NCBI RefSeq assembly: GCF_029870285.1 | Contig: NZ_JACSYA010000015.1 | Coordinates: 55,097-119,096, forward strand | Length of the DNA: 64,000 bases | Direction of reading: 5' to 3' | Origin: Delftia sp. PS-11 | GTDB taxonomy: Bacteria > Pseudomonadota > Gammaproteobacteria > Burkholderiales > Burkholderiaceae_C | In this document: one piece after another, positions 2,992-12,212 of the stretch | How the letters are laid out: every line of letters starts with the position of its first letter | How positions within the stretch are numbered: position 1 is the stretch's first letter | Translations under genes and position numbers: made by a program | Notes under the pieces: generated by a model | The model's database searches: none | Told to the model about the DNA's origin: nothing | Seen by the model: the letters and a program-made list of their open reading frames with translations, nothing else

Positions 2992-3351
2992 TCAAGCAGC
3001 CAGCTTGGCCTTGACTTGATCAACGATGCTGCCAAAGGCAGCCTTGTCGTGCACCGCGATATCGGCCAGCATCTTGCGGTCGATTTCGATGGAAGCCTTC
3101 TTCAGGCCGTTGGTGAACTGGCTGTAGGTCAGGCCCAGTTCACGTGCAGCGGCGTTGATACGGGCGATCCACAGCTGGCGGAACACGCGCTTCTTGGTAC
3201 GGCGGTCACGGTAGGCATATTGGCCTGCCTTCATCACCGCCTGCTTGGCGATGCGGAAGACATTACCGCGGCGGCCGCGGAAACCCTTGGACAGGGCCAG
3301 AACTTTTTTGTGACGGGCGCGGGCCGTTACACCACGTTTGACGCGAGGCAT
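2992..3351 (-). CDS. rplT: 50S ribosomal protein L20
   Basis: Early-assembly protein that binds 23S rRNA; in E. coli and Bacillus it also represses its own operon translationally. It has 119 residues, the family length, with the typical basic start [16 protein letters not shown] and the conserved core [17 protein letters not shown] and YRDRRTKKR. It follows rpmI by 26 bases, the standard rpmI-rplT pair downstream of infC. A terminator/attenuator follows it before pheS. Confidence 0.98.
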
Positions 3352-3377: not shown

Positions 3378-3581
3378 TTACAGGCCAGCCATCGGCAGCA
3401 TCTGAGCGATGTGACCCATGTTGGTCTCATGCACAGCCACTGCACCACGCAGGTGACGCTTGTTCTTGGTGGTCTTCTTGGTCAAGATGTGACGCTTGAA
3501 GGCTTGACCGCGCTTGACGGTGCCACCGGGACGAACGCGAAAACGCTTCTTCGCGCTGCTCTTGGTCTTCATTTTGGGCAT
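3378..3581 (-). CDS. rpmI: 50S ribosomal protein L35
   Basis: Small basic protein of the large ribosomal subunit, 67 residues starting [16 protein letters not shown]. The frame stays open further upstream, but the ATG at 3581 is chosen because an AGGAG ribosome-binding site lies eight bases before it and the family begins exactly here. The gene lies between infC and rplT. The 206 bases upstream hold two long hairpins that may be the target of L20-type autogenous control (see separate entry). Confidence 0.97.
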
Positions 3582-3679
3582 TTGAATGCTCCTGTTGATT
3601 GTGCTCGTGAGGCGGCTCGCAACACTGCGCGCACTTGCTGGCCCCGAGACACTTTTTTGCCGGCCCATGTCCGGCATGC

Positions 3680-3753
3680 GCAAGGTGCGAGGCATGCCGC
3701 GCACCTTGCAATTGCAAGAACCGGCACGAGGAACACCCCCAGCCGGTTCTTGC
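3680..3753 (-). promoter_or_regulatory. Two strong hairpins in the infC-rpmI intergenic region
   Basis: The 206-base gap between infC and rpmI is long for this operon. It contains two perfect stems on the minus strand: a 12-bp stem with arms at 3742-3753 and 3714-3725 (GCAAGAACCGGC) and a 10-bp stem with arms at 3700-3709 and 3680-3689 (GCAAGGTGCG). Neither is followed by a T tract, so they are not simple terminators. In E. coli the region before rpmI carries the L20 translational operator and an RNA processing site. A comparable role here is inference. Confidence 0.55.
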
Positions 3754-3787: not shown

Positions 3788-4396
3788 TTATGCCTTATCG
3801 GCCACTGCAGGTGCAGCAGTTTCTGCCTGCTGCTTGCCGCCAGCGGCGGGCTTCTTGCGCGCCGGGGCGACCATCATCACCATCTGGCGGCCTTCCAGCT
3901 TGGGGAACTGCTCCACCTGGATGGTGTCGGCCAGATCGTCACGCAGACGGTTCAGCAGGTCCAGACCCAGCTGCTGGTGCGTGATTTCACGGCCGCGAAA
4001 GCGCAGCGTGATCTTGCACTTGTCGCCATCCGCCAGAAAACGGCGGATGTTGCGCAGCTTGATGTTGTAGTCGCCATCATCGGTACCAGGGCGGAACTTC
4101 ACTTCCTTGATTTCGATGACGGTTTGCTTGGCCTTGGCTTCTGCAGCCTTCTTTTGTTCAAGGTACTTGAACTTGCCGTAGTCCATCAGCCGGCAGACAG
4201 GCGGAGTTGCCGTGGCGGCAATTTCCACCAGGTCCACATCCAGATCGCCTGCCATGCGCAGGGCTTCCTGCAGAGGAACGATACCCAGGGGCTCGTTGTC
4301 AGGGCCAGACAGACGCACTTCAGGCGCCATGATTTCACGGTTGAGGCGATGCTTGCGCTCTTCACGGTGGCGCCGATCACGAAATTCAGTAGCTAT
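3788..4396 (-). CDS. infC: Translation initiation factor IF-3 (probable ATA start)
   Basis: IF-3 binds the 30S subunit, prevents premature 50S joining and rejects non-AUG start codons. The protein (202 residues from the ATA, 205 from an upstream GTG at 4405) contains the family core: N-terminal [19 protein letters not shown], linker helix, then a C-terminal domain with [17 protein letters not shown] and [15 protein letters not shown]. The GTG at 4405 has AAGG touching it, too close to serve as its binding site, whereas AAGG lies nine bases before the ATA at 4396-4394. The ATA reading gives a start like [15 protein letters not shown], the beta-proteobacterial pattern. The C-terminal tail is Lys/Ala-rich. 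The gene follows thrS. Confidence 0.93.
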
Positions 4397-4430
4397 GGTT
4401 CTCACCCTTGGATTTGGTTGCTACAACAGC

Positions 4431-4465
4431 GTAGCCGCTTGCGTGCGACGCACGCAAGCGGTCTA
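4431..4465 (-). promoter_or_regulatory. Long hairpin in the thrS-infC gap
   Basis: A 12-bp perfect stem (CCGCTTGCGTGC, arms at 4435-4446 and 4450-4461, 3-base loop) extends to 16 bp with GTAG/CTAC and one bulged base. It ends about 35 bases before the infC start codon. There is no T tract, so it looks like an mRNA-stabilising or translation-modulating structure rather than a terminator. Confidence 0.5.
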
Positions 4466-4485
4466 CCGCCTGCGGAAAGGCCCCT

Positions 4486-6417
4486 TCAGGCCTTGGCGGC
4501 GATGTCCTTGGTGATGAGCTCGATGAACTCTTCAACCGTCATCACGCCAAGGTCCTTGTTGCCCCGTGCGCGCACTGCCACTGCTCCTGCCGCCTTTTCC
4601 TTGTCACCTGCGACGAGGATGTAGGGCAGCTTTTGCAACGAATGCTCCCGTATTTTATACGTAATCTTTTCGTTACGCAGATCAGTCACTACCCTAAGAC
4701 CTTGATTCGGCAATGCTTTTTGCAGCTTTTGCGCCACGTCGCGCACATAGTCCGCCTGCGAGTCGGTGATATTGAGCACCGCCACCTGCGTGGGAGCCAG
4801 CCAGGTGGGCAACGCGCCGGCGTGCTGCTCGATCAGAATGCCGATGAATCGCTCCAGGCTGCCCACGATGGCGCGGTGCAGCATCACGGGACGGTGGCGG
4901 CCACCGTCTTCGCCCACATACTCCGCATCCAGGCGCTCGGGCATGGAAAAGTCCACCTGAATGGTGCCGCACTGCCACTGGCGGCCGATCGCATCCTTGA
5001 GCGTGTACTCGATCTTGGGACCGTAGAACGCGCCGTCGCCGGGCGAGAGCACGTACTCGCAGCCCGAAGCCTCCAGGCTGTTGATCAGCGCCGCTTCCGC
5101 CTTGTCCCAGATTTCATCGGAGCCAATGCGCGCCTCGGGACGCGTGGCCACCTTGTAGATGATGTCGGTGAAGCCGAAATCCCTGTAGACCTTCTGCAGC
5201 AGCGTGGTGAAGGCCAGCACCTCGGGCTGAATCTGATCCTCGGTACAGAAGACATGGCCGTCATCCTGCGTGAAGCCGCGCACGCGCATGATGCCATGCA
5301 GGCCGCCCGTGGGTTCATTGCGGTGGCACTGGCCGAATTCGCCGTAGCGCAGTGGCAGGTCGCGGTAGCTCTTGATGCCCTGCTTGAAAATCAGGATGTG
5401 GCCGGGGCAGTTCATCGGCTTGAGCGCGTAGTCGCGCTTTTCCGACTCCGTGACGAACATGTTGTCGCGGTACTTGTCCCAGTGGCCGGTCTTCTCCCAC
5501 AGGGTCTTGTCCAGAATCTGCGGCCCCTTGACCTCCTGGTAGCCGTTGTCGCGGTAGACACGGCGCATGTACTGCTCGACCTCCTGCCACAGCGACCAGC
5601 CCTTGGGGTGCCAGAACACGGTACCGGGCGAATGCTCGTCGATATGGAACAGATCGAGCTCGCGGCCCAGCTTGCGGTGGTCGCGCTTTTCAGCCTCCTC
5701 CAGCATGTGCAGGTACTGCTGCAGGTCATCCTTGGTGGCCCAGGCAGTGCCGTAGACGCGCTGCAGCATCTCGTTGCGGTGGTCGCCGCGCCAGTAGGCG
5801 CCAGCCACCTTCATCAGCTTGAAGAACTTGAGCTTGCCGGTGCTGGGCACGTGGGGGCCACGGCACAGGTCCTCGAAGCCGCCTTCACGGTACAGGCTCA
5901 CATCCTCGTTGGTGGGGATGCTGGCAATGATCTCGGCCTTGTAGTTTTCGCCGATGCCCTTGAAATACGCCACCGCCTCGTCACGCGGCAGCACGCGGCG
6001 CACCACGGGCTCATCCTTGGCAGCCAGTTCGGCCATGCGCTTTTCGATGGCAGCCAGGTCCTCGGGAGTGAATGGGCGCTTGTACGAGAAGTCGTAGTAA
6101 AAGCCATTTTCGATCACCGGGCCGATGGTGACCTGTGCATCGGGGAACAGCTCCTTGACGGCATAGGCCAACAAGTGAGCGGTCGAGTGGCGGATCACTT
6201 CCAGACCATCAGCGTCCTTGGCCGTCACGATGGACAGAGACTGGTCCTTGTCAAGGACATAGCTGGTGTCAACCACCCTGGCATCCTCGCCCGTGCCGAC
6301 CTTGCCGGCCAGCGCCGCCTTGGCCAGGCCAGAGCCGATCGAAGCGGCCACCTCGGCCACGGTCACCGGGCCGGGATACTCGCGTTGCGAACCGTCGGGA
6401 AGCGTAATGTGGATCAT
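4486..6417 (-). CDS. thrS: Threonyl-tRNA synthetase
   Basis: Charges tRNA-Thr in the cytoplasm; 643 residues, the normal length. Domains in order: N-terminal TGS domain (1-60, starts [15 protein letters not shown]), the editing domain with [16 protein letters not shown], the class II core with motif 2 [15 protein letters not shown], the zinc ligands in [10 protein letters not shown] and DDGHVFC, and the C-terminal anticodon-binding domain. It is the first gene of the translation operon. A 170-base leader precedes it and encodes a Thr-rich peptide and competing stems, indicating control by transcription attenuation in response to charged tRNA-Thr (inferred; see the leader entries). Confidence 0.98.
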
Positions 6418-6462
6418 GGGATTCCTTCAATATTTCTCGGGGGCGCGCCACCCCCCAAAAGC

Positions 6463-6571
6463 AAAAAAGCGCGGAGCCAGGTCCGCGCTTTTTGAAAGGT
6501 CGAGTCAGTCTCGTGCAGGCGCGAACCGCCAGCCGCTAGCGGCCGGTGTACATCTCCGATGTAGTTCGCGG
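6463..6571 (-). promoter_or_regulatory. Candidate threonine attenuator in the thrS leader
   Basis: Four segments can form mutually exclusive stems on the minus strand. Segment 1 (6571-6564, CCGCGAAC, inside the leader peptide) pairs with segment 2 (6527-6519, GGTTCGCGC). Segment 2 pairs over nine bases, one of them G-U, with segment 3 (6488-6480, GCGCGGACC). Segment 3 also forms the 5' arm of an intrinsic terminator, pairing with segment 4 (6475-6469) and followed by six T residues (6468-6463). This is the classic trp-operon layout, ending 46 bases before the thrS start. Seen directly: all complementarities. Inferred: the regulatory function. Confidence 0.75.
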
Positions 6572-6586
6572 TGTCATAACCAGCAT
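6536..6586 (-). CDS. Threonine-rich leader peptide before thrS
   Basis: A 16-codon ORF reads MLVMTPRTTSEMYTGR; an internal in-frame ATG at 6577 would give a 13-residue version. Four of the last 13 codons are threonine, against a normal frequency near one in twenty. GAGAAAGG lies just before the first ATG. Its Thr codons overlap attenuator segment 1, so a ribosome stalled for lack of charged tRNA-Thr would free segment 2 to form the antiterminator. The peptide itself probably has no function beyond being translated. Confidence 0.7.
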   Translation of the reverse strand: MLVMTPRTTSEMYTGR

Positions 6587-6636
6587 TGCCTTTCTCGCCC
6601 TTGTCAGTTGAAAATCTTTGCCATTCTAACCACAGC

Positions 6637-6674
6637 AAAGAAAAAGCGCCCGAAGCACAAGGCCCCGGACGCTT
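6637..6674 (-). terminator. Intrinsic terminator after aceA
   Basis: On the minus strand AAGCGTCCG (6674-6666) pairs with CGGGCGCTT (6652-6644), nine pairs with one G-U, and is followed by a run of T (6645-6641). It lies 48 bases after the aceA stop and separates aceA from the thrS leader. Confidence 0.75.
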
Positions 6675-6721
6675 CTTCACCCCTATCTACTACCTGAAGC
6701 TTGACTCACTACAGCCGCGCT

Positions 6722-8053
<1,332 letters not shown>

Positions 8054-8202
8054 GTTGCTCTCCAGGGAGGTGGTTGAAACAAGCGGCTTTCTTGCGTCGG
8101 CCTTGGGATCAAATTTAAGCCTTTCAGCGTCCTCAATCCATCTCTTGTGTCTTATATAAGACTAAATTTTTTCTATTAAAAATCAAATACTTGCAACATT
8201 TT

Positions 8203-8237
8203 TTCTCAATGCGAAATTAAATTTCTCGTATTGAGAA
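8203..8237. promoter_or_regulatory. 35-bp dyad in the aceA upstream region
   Basis: TTCTCAAT (8203-8210) and its exact inverse ATTGAGAA (8230-8237) flank an inner dyad GAAAT..ATTTC (8213-8225) with nearly the same centre, in a strongly AT-rich stretch between divergent aceA and the EamA transporter gene. Symmetry and position suggest a regulator-binding site controlling aceA, possibly also the divergent gene. The regulator cannot be named from the sequence. Confidence 0.5.
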
Positions 8238-8273
8238 ATTTTTCCGCATTGCAGCATTTCATTTTTTCATCAT

Positions 8274-9266
8274 GTGAAAACGCAATCGCAGTCGATGAAA
8301 AATGCCCTCGGCTATCATGCCCTGCCCATGGTCATCGCCACCTCTCACCGCACCTTCGCATACGCCTGCCTGGGCCTGAGCATGTCTCTGGTCGGCAGCT
8401 ATGTCGCGCTGTCCAAGCCGCTGGCGGCTGTTTTCCCGGTGCTGCTGCTGGCGTGGATGCGCTTCGGCATCGGCGCCATTGCCATGCTGGGATGGCTGCG
8501 CAGGCCGCCCGAGGAGGCCAGGCTGTCCCGCCGGGCGCGGGCTCTGCTGTTTCTTGAGTCGCTGTTCGGCAACTTCCTGTTCACCATTTGCATGGTCACG
8601 GGCATCAGCATGACCAGCGCCGTGACGGCCGGTGTGACCATGTCGGCCATTCCGGCAACGGTCGCCCTGATGAGCTGGCTGCTGCTGCGCGAACGTGTGG
8701 CACAGCGTACCTGGCTGGCCGTGGCACTGGCCGTCGCGGGCATTGCTCTGTATGCGCTTTCGCGCGAGCAGCCTGCGGTGCAAGCAGGTCCGCAGCCGCC
8801 TGCAGGCGCGGCATGGCTGGGACAGCTGCTGCTCATCGGCGCCGTGCTGTGCGAGTCGCTGTACGCCGTGATCGGCAAGCACCTGACAGCCTCCATGGGC
8901 CCCCGGCGCATCACGGCACTCATCAACCTATGGGGCCTGGTTCTGTCCACGCCGTTCGGCCTGTACCTGGCCTGGAATTTCAATTTCAGCGCCGTGGGCT
9001 GGGGCACCTGGGGACTGCTGCTGTTTTACGGACTTGCGGCCTGTGTCTGGACGGTATGGCTTTGGATGACGGGCCTGCGCAATGTACCTGCATCCCAGGC
9101 GGGAATTTTCACGGTGCTGCTGCCGATCAGCACCGCCATTGTGGGCATGTGCGTACTGGGCGAGCGCATCTCAGCCATGCAGGCGCTGGCCTTCGGCATC
9201 GCCCTGCTGGGCGTACTCATCGCGACCTGGCCCGGCAGGCAGCACAACCTTGCCCAGGCCCACTGA
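8274..9266 (+). CDS. EamA/DMT-family inner-membrane transporter
   Basis: A polytopic protein of up to 330 residues with about ten hydrophobic segments arranged as two EamA repeats, the drug/metabolite transporter fold. Members export amino acids or small metabolites; the substrate cannot be told from the sequence. The start is uncertain: GTG 8274, ATG 8295 and ATG 8328 (MVIATSHRTFAYACLG) are in frame and none has a good ribosome-binding site. The third agrees best with family N-termini, where the first membrane segment begins soon after the start. It is divergent from aceA and shares its regulatory region. No partner gene suggests a substrate. Confidence 0.85.
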   Translation: MKTQSQSMKNALGYHALPMVIATSHRTFAYACLGLSMSLVGSYVALSKPLAAVFPVLLLAWMRFGIGAIAMLGWLRRPPEEARLSRRARALLFLESLFGNFLFTICMVTGISMTSAVTAGVTMSAIPATVALMSWLLLRERVAQRTWLAVALAVAGIALYALSREQPAVQAGPQPPAGAAWLGQLLLIGAVLCESLYAVIGKHLTASMGPRRITALINLWGLVLSTPFGLYLAWNFNFSAVGWGTWGLLLFYGLAACVWTVWLWMTGLRNVPASQAGIFTVLLPISTAIVGMCVLGERISAMQALAFGIALLGVLIATWPGRQHNLAQAH

Positions 9267-9483
9267 CGGCGCCGGACTGCCCTCAGTACCACCGCCCGCA
9301 AGCCAGGCTGCGCAGCGCAGAATGCAAAAACCCCGCAAAAACGGGTGCAACAGCAACAAATCGAGGCAAAAAATTGCCGCCTCAGCTTGGAAGAGCGATT
9401 TTTTCCCATTAGCATCAGCCTGCCAGTGGATAGCGACGGTTTTTCGCTGGTAAAGAATCCACTCTCTACTAGGAACAAGCAAC

Positions 9484-9792
9484 ATGGCAACTGCAAAGAA
9501 GGCAACGGCTGCTCCCGCAGCTCCCGCAGCTCCCGAAAAGAAGCGCACCCCCAACGCCGCCTTCATGAAACCCCTCACCCCCAGCTCCGCCCTGGCAGCC
9601 GTGGTGGGTTCGGCTCCCCTGCCCCGCACCGAGATCATCAGCAAGCTGTGGGTGTACATCAAGGCCAACAAGCTGCAGGATGCCAGCAACAAGCGCATGA
9701 TCAATGCCGACGCCAAGCTCAAGGAAGTGTTTGGCAAGCCCCAGGTTTCGATGTTCGAAATGGCCGGCCTGATCGGCAAGCACGTCAAGTAA
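9484..9792 (+). CDS. SWIB/MDM2-domain protein
   Basis: A 102-residue protein with an Ala/Pro/Lys-rich N-terminal tail (about 1-25) followed by a complete SWIB domain: FMKPLTPSSALAAVVGSAPLPRTE, then the helix KLWVYIKANKLQD and the ending MINADAKLKEVFG...FEMAGLIGKHVK. SWIB domains are known from eukaryotic chromatin-remodelling complexes and from chlamydiae, where a SWIB domain is fused to topoisomerase I. In beta-proteobacteria free-standing copies are common and uncharacterised; a DNA-associated role is inference. The ATG has AGGAA ten bases upstream, and a terminator follows. Confidence 0.88.
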   Translation: MATAKKATAAPAAPAAPEKKRTPNAAFMKPLTPSSALAAVVGSAPLPRTEIISKLWVYIKANKLQDASNKRMINADAKLKEVFGKPQVSMFEMAGLIGKHVK

Positions 9793-9821
9793 TTTTCCAA
9801 GGGGCCACCCCCTGGGAACCC

Positions 9822-9846
9822 AAGCCGGCCCAGGGCCGGCTTTTTC
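9822..9846 (+). terminator. Intrinsic terminator after the SWIB gene
   Basis: The stem AGCCGGCC/GGCCGGCT with a 3-base loop is followed by TTTTT. It lies 30 bases after the stop codon. Confidence 0.8.
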
Positions 9847-9882
9847 GTTTCCGCCCGGGAGCAGGCCACGCCCACTGCCGCC

Positions 9883-11016
9883 ATGAACACTGCGCCCTCA
9901 CTGCAAGCCCTGCCGGACAACCTCATCAATCTGGCAGATCACGAGGCCTGCGCGCGCAGCCGGCTCGACAGCAACGCCTGGGCCTACTTCTACGGCGGTG
10001 CCGCAGATGAGTTCAGTCTGGCGGCGAACCGCCAGGCCTGGGATGCGCTGACACTGTGGCCGCGCGTGCTGCGGACGCTGGCGGGCGGGCACACGCGCGT
10101 GCACCTGCTGGGGCGCGAGCTGGCATGCCCGCTGCTGGTGGCGCCCATGGCCTTCCAGCGCATGGCACATGCCGATGGCGAACTGGCCATGGCCTATGCA
10201 TCGGCCGCGCTGGGCGCAGGCATGGTGTTCAGCACACAGGCAAGCATGCCCCTCGAACAGGTGGCCCAGGCCGTGCTCGGCATGCAAGGCCGTGGCCCAC
10301 TGTGGTTTCAGCTGTACCTGCAGCACGATCGCGGCTTCACCCGGCAACTGGTGGCACGTGCCGAAGCTGCGGGCTACGAGGCACTGGTACTCACGGTGGA
10401 CGCCCCTGCGCATGGGGCGCGCGACCGCGAGCGCCGGGCTCGCTTTCGACTGCCCGAAGGCATTGGCGCCATCAATCTGCAGGGGATGGCGCCGCCGCCG
10501 TCCGTGCCGCTCGAACATGGCCAGAGTGCACTGTTCGATGGCCTGCTGCATCAGGCTCCGACCTGGGAGGATGTGCAATGGCTGCAGAGCCAGACCCGCC
10601 TGCCCGTGCTGCTCAAAGGCATACTGCACCCTGCCGATGCCGTGCAGGCTGCGCGCCTGGGCGTGGCAGGACTGATCGTTTCCAACCATGGAGGGCGGAC
10701 GCTGGATACGGCACCGGCGACGGCCATTGCGCTGCGACACGTGGTGCATGCGCTGCGCAGCGCTGGCATGGATGTGCCAGTCCTCGTCGATGGAGGCATA
10801 CGCCGGGGCACAGACGTGCTCAAGGCAATGGCGCTGGGAGCCAGCGCCGTGCTGATAGGGCGGCCTGCGATCTGGGGGCTGGCCAATGCCGGCGCCGCAG
10901 GCGTTGCCCACGTGCTGCGGCTGCTGCGCGACGAGCTGGAAATTGCCATGGCGCTCAGCGGCTGCGCACGCCTGTCAGACGCGTCGCCAGCCCTGCTGGA
11001 CCCGGCCTGCGCATGA
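9883..11016 (+). CDS. FMN-dependent alpha-hydroxy acid oxidase/dehydrogenase
   Basis: A 377-residue member of the glycolate oxidase/L-lactate dehydrogenase family, which oxidise L-2-hydroxy acids to 2-keto acids on an FMN-bearing TIM barrel. Family features visible: N-terminal AWAYFYGGAADE, the FMN-binding LLVAPMAFQRMAH, WFQLYL, the barrel strand LVLTVDAPAHG, LLKGIL with its active-site lysine, and the signature SNHGGRTLD with the catalytic His at about 269 and substrate-binding Arg at about 272, followed by LVDGGIRRGTDVLKAMALGA. Without an LldP permease or glycolate genes nearby, the substrate is open. ATG 9883 follows the SWIB terminator, so the gene probably has its own promoter. Confidence 0.9.
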   Translation: MNTAPSLQALPDNLINLADHEACARSRLDSNAWAYFYGGAADEFSLAANRQAWDALTLWPRVLRTLAGGHTRVHLLGRELACPLLVAPMAFQRMAHADGELAMAYASAALGAGMVFSTQASMPLEQVAQAVLGMQGRGPLWFQLYLQHDRGFTRQLVARAEAAGYEALVLTVDAPAHGARDRERRARFRLPEGIGAINLQGMAPPPSVPLEHGQSALFDGLLHQAPTWEDVQWLQSQTRLPVLLKGILHPADAVQAARLGVAGLIVSNHGGRTLDTAPATAIALRHVVHALRSAGMDVPVLVDGGIRRGTDVLKAMALGASAVLIGRPAIWGLANAGAAGVAHVLRLLRDELEIAMALSGCARLSDASPALLDPACA

Positions 11017-11067
11017 GACCCGCGCCATATGCCGTGGCACATGTTGTGTAAAGATGGCAACCAAGGA

Positions 11068-11108
11068 TTGCAAATGCGATGAATTCTCATTTATAATCTC
11101 TATCATTC
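11068..11108 (+). promoter_or_regulatory. Promoter with Fur-like box before bfd
   Basis: TTGCAA (11068-11073) and TATAAT (11092-11097) are 18 bases apart. GAATTCTCATTTATAATCTC and the following TATCATT overlap the -10 element and resemble the 19-bp Fur consensus built from GATAAT hexamers. This fits repression of bfd and perhaps tonB-exbBD by iron. Confidence 0.6.
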
Positions 11109-11139
11109 CTTCTATAGCCAGCAACAACTGCCTGCAGCC

Positions 11140-11406
11140 ATGATCGTTTGTGTATGCCGCCGGGTTTCCGACCGTGAGATCGCACGCCACGCGCATGCGG
11201 GCCTGAGCTTTGACGAAATCCAGTTCGAACTGGGCATCGCCATGCAGTGCGGGCGGTGCGAAAACTGCGCCAGGGACGTGGTTGCACGCTGCAGCAGCGC
11301 CCACTCGGTGGCAGCCATACACAACGAGGCGCAGACCGTCCAGCTTGCCAACAACATCCTGGAGAGCAAAGCATGGTCCTCCTCTCAGCACTTGTCGGCA
11401 GCCTGA
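11140..11406 (+). CDS. bfd: Bacterioferritin-associated ferredoxin-like [2Fe-2S] protein
   Basis: An 88-residue protein opening MIVCVCRRVSDREI, with the BFD-type arrangement C-x-C (Cys4, Cys6), then CGRC and ENC further on, which hold a [2Fe-2S] cluster. Bfd reduces and mobilises iron stored in bacterioferritin when iron is scarce. The C-terminal 25 residues extend beyond the usual 60-65 and have no clear domain. A Fur-like box precedes it, and the tonB-exbB-exbD system follows, so it belongs to an iron-limitation block. Its 3' end overlaps a tiny ORF in another frame. Confidence 0.88.
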   Translation: MIVCVCRRVSDREIARHAHAGLSFDEIQFELGIAMQCGRCENCARDVVARCSSAHSVAAIHNEAQTVQLANNILESKAWSSSQHLSAA

Positions 11407-11447
11407 TCCTCGTCGTGACATGTACCTGGTGGATTCTGCGCCGCTGA
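11373..11447 (+). CDS. Candidate 24-residue single-span membrane microprotein
   Basis: This ORF overlaps the end of bfd by 34 bases in another frame. It begins MVLLSALVGSLILVV, continues with a short Cys/Trp-containing stretch and ends ILRR: one hydrophobic helix with a positive C-terminal tail, the pattern of many bacterial small membrane proteins. GGAGAG lies six bases before its ATG, better than the binding site of most genes around it. It sits between bfd and tonB in the iron block, so co-expression with TonB/ExbBD is likely. There is no homology evidence, and the function is unknown. Confidence 0.5.
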   Translation: MVLLSALVGSLILVVTCTWWILRR

Positions 11448-11507
11448 CATCCAGTTTTCCAAGCGGCGGTATATCCTGCTCCCTTGCCGGCCGCTTCCTC
11501 TGTCTCT

Positions 11508-12212
11508 ATGCCACCATCTGATCGTTTTGGCCCCGCAGGGGGCCTTGGCCGCAACATGGCCATCGCAGGCTCGGTCATCGCCTTCCATGCTGCCTCCCTG
11601 TGGGCCATGCAGCATGGCCTGCTGCAGCGCAGCCCTGAAGAGGTCATCGTACCGGCAGAAGTGATCGCGGAATTCATCACGCCACCCACGCCCGAGCCGC
11701 CCGCCCCCACTCCGCCGCCGCCACCACCGCCCAAGCCACAGCCCCAGCCGGTCATCAAGAAAGCGCCGCCGCTGCCCAAGGCCATCGCAGACCCCACGCC
11801 AGCGCCATCCGCTGTGCGCGGCACGCTGGACGAGGAGCCCAAGCCCGTGGTGGAAGCTCCGCCTGCGCCGCCAGCCCCCCCTGCGCCGCCGGCACCTCCG
11901 GCTCCGCCCGCGCCGCCGGCACCGGCCAAGATCGAGCTGCCGTCCAGCACAGCTGCCTATCTGAACAACCCCATTCCCAGCTATCCGGCCATCAGCCGGC
12001 GCATGGGAGAGCAAGGCATCGTGATGCTGCGGGTCTTCATTGATGCGCAAGGCATGCCGCAGAAGGTTGACATCCAGAAGTCCAGCGGCTATGACCGGCT
12101 GGACCAGCAGGCAGTGGATGCCGTCAAGCGCTGGAAGTTCGTTCCAGGCAAGGATCGGGGAGTCCCCACGCCCATGTGGGCCACGGTTCCCATCAACTTT
12201 AATCTCAATTGA
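11508..12212 (+). CDS. tonB: TonB energy-transducing protein
   Basis: Couples the inner-membrane proton gradient, through ExbB/ExbD, to outer-membrane siderophore and heme receptors. Starting at ATG 11508 it has 234 residues: a single N-terminal membrane anchor (MAIAGSVIAFHAASLWAM), a long proline-rich periplasmic spacer with PPPPPPKPQPQP and a run of about eight PPA/APP triplets, and a C-terminal TonB domain with SYPAISRRMGEQGIVMLRVFID and DQQAVDAVKRWKFVPGK. The tandem triplets reflect repeated gcgccgcca-like codons and may vary in number between strains. An upstream TTG (11484) is also in frame; neither start has a clear binding site. exbB follows by 15 bases. Confidence 0.93.
   Translation: MPPSDRFGPAGGLGRNMAIAGSVIAFHAASLWAMQHGLLQRSPEEVIVPAEVIAEFITPPTPEPPAPTPPPPPPPKPQPQPVIKKAPPLPKAIADPTPAPSAVRGTLDEEPKPVVEAPPAPPAPPAPPAPPAPPAPPAPAKIELPSSTAAYLNNPIPSYPAISRRMGEQGIVMLRVFIDAQGMPQKVDIQKSSGYDRLDQQAVDAVKRWKFVPGKDRGVPTPMWATVPINFNLN

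Follow-up and report, generated by a model that had tools for sequence, protein, structure and literature searches.

The thrS upstream region

The locus lies on the minus strand of the window (the whole stretch of 64,000 nucleotides that was analysed), between the genes for isocitrate lyase (6722-8053) and threonine--tRNA ligase (thrS, 4486-6417). Its features and the genes that follow thrS are given here with the evidence for each.

6623..6628, minus strand: -10-like hexamer TAGAAT, probable promoter of the leader transcript (sequence and relatives)
6589..6594, minus strand: Shine-Dalgarno-like GAAAGG of the leader ORF (GAAAGG-like in 88/91 relatives)
6536..6577, minus strand: leader ORF MTPRTTSEMYTGR, 13 codons, stop TAG at 6538-6536, with Thr at codons 2, 5, 6 and 11
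6564..6570, minus strand: segment 1, CGCGAAC, within leader codons 3-5 (leader nt 8-14) (folding, RNAalifold of three classes)
6519..6526, minus strand: segment 2, GTTCGCGC (duplex tests, RNAalifold, masking folds)
6482..6493, minus strand: segment 3, terminator 5' arm (terminator scan, aligned pairs)
6481..6488, minus strand: GCGCGGAC, segment 3 as the predicted antiterminator partner of segment 2 (complementarity)
6463..6475, minus strand: segment 4, terminator 3' arm plus six T (6468-6463) (terminator scan, aligned pairs)
4486..6417, minus strand: thrS, threonine--tRNA ligase, the putatively controlled gene (NCBIfam equivalog TIGR00418)
3788-4405, minus strand: infC, 3' of thrS (NCBIfam equivalog TIGR00168)
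within 3378-3704, minus strand: rpmI, 3' of thrS (NCBIfam equivalog TIGR00001)
2992-3351, minus strand: rplT, 3' of thrS (NCBIfam equivalog TIGR01032)

The elements described in the initial annotation, namely complementary segments pairing as 1:2, 2:3 and 3:4 and a terminator with six T residues, are all present. The intrinsic terminator runs from 6493 to 6464, and thrS begins 46 nt further on. The conserved leader start is the ATG at 6577-6575, and from this codon the original count of four Thr residues in 13 codons is correct. An earlier start at the ATG at 6586, reading MLVMTPRTTSEMYTGR, was also proposed in that annotation; we reject it because this ATG is unconserved, with an in-frame ATG no more than 12 nt 5' of the conserved start in only 31/91 relatives, and stands two bases behind the Shine-Dalgarno-like sequence. 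A TA[AG]AAT hexamer occurs 25-90 nt 5' of the leader start in 45/91 relatives, compared with 0.9% in shuffles, and a scan of the locus found no -35 consensus. The 146-nt element region folds better than 198/200 dinucleotide shuffles (z -2.87). Four terminator-like sites were observed in 5900-7000, where 0.8 are expected; two of these four are intergenic, on the minus strand, and have distinct long stems. A long terminator-like hairpin lies behind the isocitrate lyase gene (minus strand, 6678-6640), and its match to the Rfam family ctRNA_p42d is weak and at chance level (21.7 bits, gathering score 50).

Conservation of the leader within the family

The family was sampled as 120 genomes, one per genus; thrS was detected in 119/120, and 110 upstream regions were analysed. 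The initial annotation had staked its reading on a conserved Thr leader, and such a leader was found, with the strict motif ATGACxCCxCGxAC upstream of thrS in 91/110 genera and a relaxed start raising the count to 93/110. A terminator is present in 91/93 family loci with the relaxed motif, and in 54/91 the end of its stem is no more than 30 nt from the thrS ATG, a T tract so near the gene that little room is left for a separate promoter. Leader peptides identical to that of the window occur in its genus-mates and in named Comamonas contigs.

Since M-T-P-R is prescribed by the search motif and residue 5 nearly so, amino-acid conservation cannot be judged independently at those sites. Outside the motif, codon 6 encodes Thr in 68/91 leaders, with the codon varying among ACG, ACC, ACA and ACT, and codon 7 encodes Thr in 48/91. 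Leader codons 2-9 contain a mean of 3.8 Thr residues, with at least three in 82/91 leaders and exactly two in 8/91. The label ‘Thr-rich’ given at the outset is moderately apt, as many relatives have leaders with fewer Thr residues; in other families, several leaders contain no Thr beyond the two in MTPRT. Codon choice is also conserved. ACA (89/91), CCG (91/91) and CGA at codon 4 (88/91) are near-fixed; ACA, ACT and CGA, nearly fixed at leader codons 2, 5 and 4, respectively, are rare in eight ORFs of the window (ACA in 6 and ACT in 8 of 117 Thr codons, CGA in 3 of 156 Arg codons). Pairing explains CGAAC, but does not plainly explain ACA.

Even by the relaxed motif, 17/110 family members are without a leader. 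A terminator-like hairpin is kept in ten of these 17 (loci L024, L030, L034, L038, L044, L045, L071, L089, L100 and L105), where it has the form GCGCGG..CCGCG, with the variant GTGCGG in L105, and stands a short distance 5' of thrS, at some loci close beside a -10-like hexamer. The hairpin of these loci may now serve another purpose.

Alternative pairings of the four segments

Counts from the alignment refer to 71 sequences; the other 20/91 match none of three segment-2 motifs, and leaving them out favours 1:2 and 2:3. As the initial annotation had anticipated for 3:4, the pairing is conserved: seven core terminator pairs are kept in 71/71 aligned sequences, with two-sided changes in three of the seven. 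For 2:3, 84.6% of cells are paired in these selected sequences versus 22-49% for slid versions, and 500 shuffles average 82.2, none reaching 84.6%. The covariation score for 2:3 is higher than in any of the 500 shuffles, but 115/500 shuffles reach its count of pairs with a two-sided change, and 151/500 reach another measure. Across all 91 unselected sequences, the 2:3 duplex has a mean z of -1.52 against dinucleotide shuffles, ranks 5 or better of 100 in 31/91 and is unremarkable (rank above 20 of 100) in 24/91.

By the same duplex test on all 91 sequences, 1:2 has a mean z of -1.16, ranks 5 or better of 100 in 25/91 and is unremarkable (rank above 20 of 100) in 34/91. In the alignment, 79.6% of 1:2 cells are paired, two A-U pairs of the helix are broken in 44/69 and 35/69 sequences and one pair has a two-sided change; there is almost no covariation because segment 1 hardly varies. 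The 1:2 pairing appears to be the weakest-supported part of the attenuator model.

Structure prediction is consistent with mutually exclusive folds. For each of three sequence classes (23, 21 and 27 sequences), RNAalifold predicts 1:2 together with 3:4 and, once segments 1 and 4 are removed, 2:3; combined folding of the 71 sequences gives the terminator only, with 1:2 and 2:3 emerging solely by class or when the pairing is specified in advance. In the window, masking to +30 with segment 4 absent yields the 2:3 antiterminator (-30.0 kcal/mol), masking segment 1 with segment 4 present lets the terminator win (-35.8), and masking to the stop codon (+54) gives the terminator. As the terminator wins at equilibrium once segment 4 has been made, the choice between structures would have to be kinetic. 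When the stalled state was tested by whole folds, 88/91 sequences agreed with it, but shuffled sequences scored almost as well, the difference being weak (8.95 vs 8.32 bases of segment 3 engaged, p 0.005); the case for 2:3 therefore rests on the duplex test. In 72/91 leaders, the distance of the stop codon from segment 2 is between -9 and +15 nt; for the other two frames, counting the sequences that have a stop, the corresponding figures are 4/34 and 8/38.

Distribution across the order

A pattern combining the Shine-Dalgarno-like sequence with the leader start matches in 26/300 genomes of the order, in 26/26 cases directly before thrS (99-179 nt 5' of the gene, on the same strand), and the window genome has a single match; among the matches listed for this 300-genome scan, the reversed control pattern has none. 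A scan of named contigs found at least 118 stretches, and thrS lies 60-400 nt downstream in 115 of the 118 listed, the remaining three contigs ending before its position could be seen. Among the matches listed, the leader is found in Comamonas, Acidovorax, Variovorax, Rhodoferax, Massilia, Janthinobacterium, Undibacterium, Herbaspirillum, Collimonas and Cupriavidus. The element extends beyond Comamonadaceae, the initial scope of comparison.

A wider sample of the order, spanning 47 families, added 88 upstream regions, one of them mis-anchored (L138; the leader of that genome is represented by L128), with 9/99 order genomes that have thrS falling outside it. A terminator precedes thrS in 61/88 of these regions, from 37 families. 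In an unbiased order-wide test of ORFs before the terminator, Thr is the most enriched of the 20 residues (z 11.4), followed by Val (z 7.2), probably because a tRNA-Val gene lies upstream; Arg has a z of 4.0. At least three Thr residues occur within six in 21 order loci. A set of 32 loci was scored as having a Thr ORF. The ORFs picked across the order, both for the enrichment test and for this set, contain some spurious ones that stem from tRNA genes (for example L189, L154 and L156), and these count among the 32; 19 of the 32, from 13 families, have an Arg-Thr pair, with CGAAC in 19/19, and the 2:3 duplex ranks 5 or better of 100 in 17/32. The leaders themselves differ across the order (MTPRT, MQLNRTTTTS, MFKRTTTTRISR, MSFRTTTTGTLNQG and others).

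A tRNA-Val(GAC) gene stands directly 5' of thrS, on the same strand, in many of the order's families and also in other orders of the class; it is usually gone from the Comamonadaceae loci examined. ARAGORN identified it in 40/46 loci scanned (L160, L166, L172-L224), on the thrS strand in 40/40; these loci were hand-picked, many for visible tRNA-like sequence, and the fraction is not a prevalence. Two genomes from one family of the order (G151 and G195) have a second, more distant copy of thrS (57% and 56% identity).

Operator-like hairpins in other orders of the class

Other orders, which we infer to be classical gammaproteobacteria, were represented by 40 upstream regions from 57 genomes (17/57 fell outside the sample). 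An anticodon-mimic motif is present in 21/40 of these regions. A hairpin scan flags 25/40, three of them within tRNA-Val, and 22/40 resemble the E. coli anticodon-arm mimic. Among these 40 regions (L343-L382), one example of the hairpin just before thrS reads GTGGTCT-CTCGTAT-GGATCAC. In the window's order, the anticodon-mimic motif was found in 0/88 regions and in 0/110 from the family; the hairpin scan gave 5/88 and 2/110 hits, all terminator hairpins or unrelated stems. No convincing E. coli-type operator thus appears among 198 regions of the window's order.

Discussion

We consider it highly likely that a ribosome-mediated transcription attenuator of the trp type controls thrS via charged tRNA-Thr. 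The leader, terminator, stop position, conservation and complementarities are read from sequence, and they suggest the following course of events. Transcription would start near 6616, and a ribosome would translate MTPRTTSEMYTGR. With charged tRNA-Thr plentiful, the ribosome would reach the stop codon and mask segment 2 at its 5' edge, and 3:4 would form the terminator ahead of thrS. With charged tRNA-Thr in short supply, the ribosome would stall at Thr codons 5-6 (or 2), covering segment 1 and leaving segment 2 free to pair with segment 3 as it emerges; this 2:3 antiterminator would allow RNA polymerase to continue into thrS. If the leader were not translated, 1:2 would form and then the terminator. 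The kinetic choice of structure proposed here is believed to operate in the trp attenuator too. The switch may also affect infC-rpmI-rplT.

In pheST, a leader peptide with cognate codons is combined with 1:2/2:3/3:4 pairing and an intrinsic terminator. The proposed thrS attenuator shares these features, 1:2 as a predicted pairing, with the pheST, trp, thr and his attenuators of E. coli, as well as, with pheST, control of an aminoacyl-tRNA synthetase gene, and differs from pheST and the amino-acid operons in its gene, its few Thr codons, its fixed ATG-ACA-CCG-CGA-ACN start and the lack of any sequence relation in Rfam. In E. coli, ThrRS binds a tRNA-like hairpin near the start codon of thrS mRNA. 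This operator concerns the same gene and presumably serves the same homeostatic purpose, but its mRNA hairpin, of the kind seen in 22/40 regions from other orders, has no convincing counterpart in the 198 regions of the window's order. T-boxes, in which uncharged tRNA antiterminates aminoacyl-tRNA synthetase genes, including thrS of Firmicutes, likewise act by antitermination of synthetase genes; here, sensing would occur through a translated ORF.

Attenuation of the aminoacyl-tRNA synthetase genes pheST is named in PMC1262725, together with predicted attenuators before leuS and trpS2 of Streptomyces, and autoregulation of E. coli thrS is named in PMC2965389. The Streptomyces examples are likewise classical attenuators before synthetase genes, for other amino acids and in another phylum. 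With attenuators before pheST, leuS and trpS already known (PMC1262725), the mechanism is known, and it is the gene and lineage that appear to be new: among the openly licensed papers listed in literature searches, no title or abstract opening names a leader-peptide attenuator of thrS, and one may be described elsewhere. The Rfam search proposed in the initial annotation returned no family matching the element. At the gathering score, nothing matches the leader in window positions 4000-12000, and 18 loci give tRNA only. T-boxes have no match in 4000-12000 (E up to 5) or, at the gathering score, in the 18 loci; nor does Thr_leader, which we take to be the Rfam name of the thr operon leader, match in either set. 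The sole match on the leader itself is Atu_C9 (13.6 bits, E 3.6, below its gathering score of 40).

A leader-ORF attenuator could instead sense something other than threonine charging, either the general speed of translation or, through its invariant rare CGA codon, arginine. Such sensing would account for CGA at codon 4 in 88/91 leaders despite its rarity in the window ORFs (3/156 Arg codons), for the CGAAC shared by the 19 Arg-Thr leaders (13 families) and for leaders with two Thr codons only, but we regard it as very unlikely: enrichment is strongest for Thr (z 11.4, vs 4.0 for Arg), codon 6 is Thr in 68/91 leaders with a varying third base, the controlled gene encodes ThrRS and CGAAC is explicable as segment 1. 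Invariance at the level of bases, synonymous positions included (ACA 89/91, CCG 91/91), could also reflect autocontrol in which ThrRS, a known autoregulator in E. coli (PMC2965389), or another protein binds the near-invariant RNA GTTATGACACCGCGAAC and the ORF is secondary. This we find highly improbable, as such binding leaves the frame-specific stop position unexplained, other families of the order retain CGAAC alone within different flanking leaders and the E. coli-type anticodon-arm hairpin was not found in the 88 and 110 regions of the order and family.

The hairpin might, finally, be the ordinary terminator of an upstream unit, with the thrS promoter behind it and the small ORF incidental. 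Isocitrate lyase, however, has a separate terminator-like hairpin (6678-6640), the stem ends within 30 nt of the thrS ATG in 54/91, and both the conservation of the leader (91/110) and the position of its stop relative to segment 2 (72/91) speak against an incidental ORF. We therefore judge this reading the least probable of those considered here, even though ten of the 17 leaderless family members retain a hairpin before thrS and in several families the tRNA-Val gene is followed directly by a terminator, with no Thr leader.

More broadly, the attenuator may have arisen by an order-wide switch, in which the ThrRS-binding tRNA-mimic operator of the other orders in the class gave way to a leader-peptide attenuator that grew from the terminator behind the tRNA-Val(GAC) gene, with the near-fixed ATG-ACA-CCG-CGA-ACN start having a second job beyond its Thr codons, for example rare-codon slowing to keep the ribosome in step with RNA polymerase. 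This combined scenario is tentative, and we think it unlikely to be correct as it stands.

thrS is the textbook example of an enzyme gene under autogenous control, in which the product binds a tRNA-like hairpin in the mRNA. If the threonine-charging attenuator proposed here is correct, the same gene follows another logic in a large neighbouring lineage, with charged tRNA-Thr read through the ribosome, and would provide a clear example, open to test, of one RNA control device replacing another at a fixed gene. The element would also constitute a candidate new Rfam family, a small ORF for annotations to add and a ready threonine-charging reporter for Comamonas, Cupriavidus and relatives. In many beta-proteobacteria, the output of the thrS enzyme would then be likely to rise as charged tRNA-Thr runs low.
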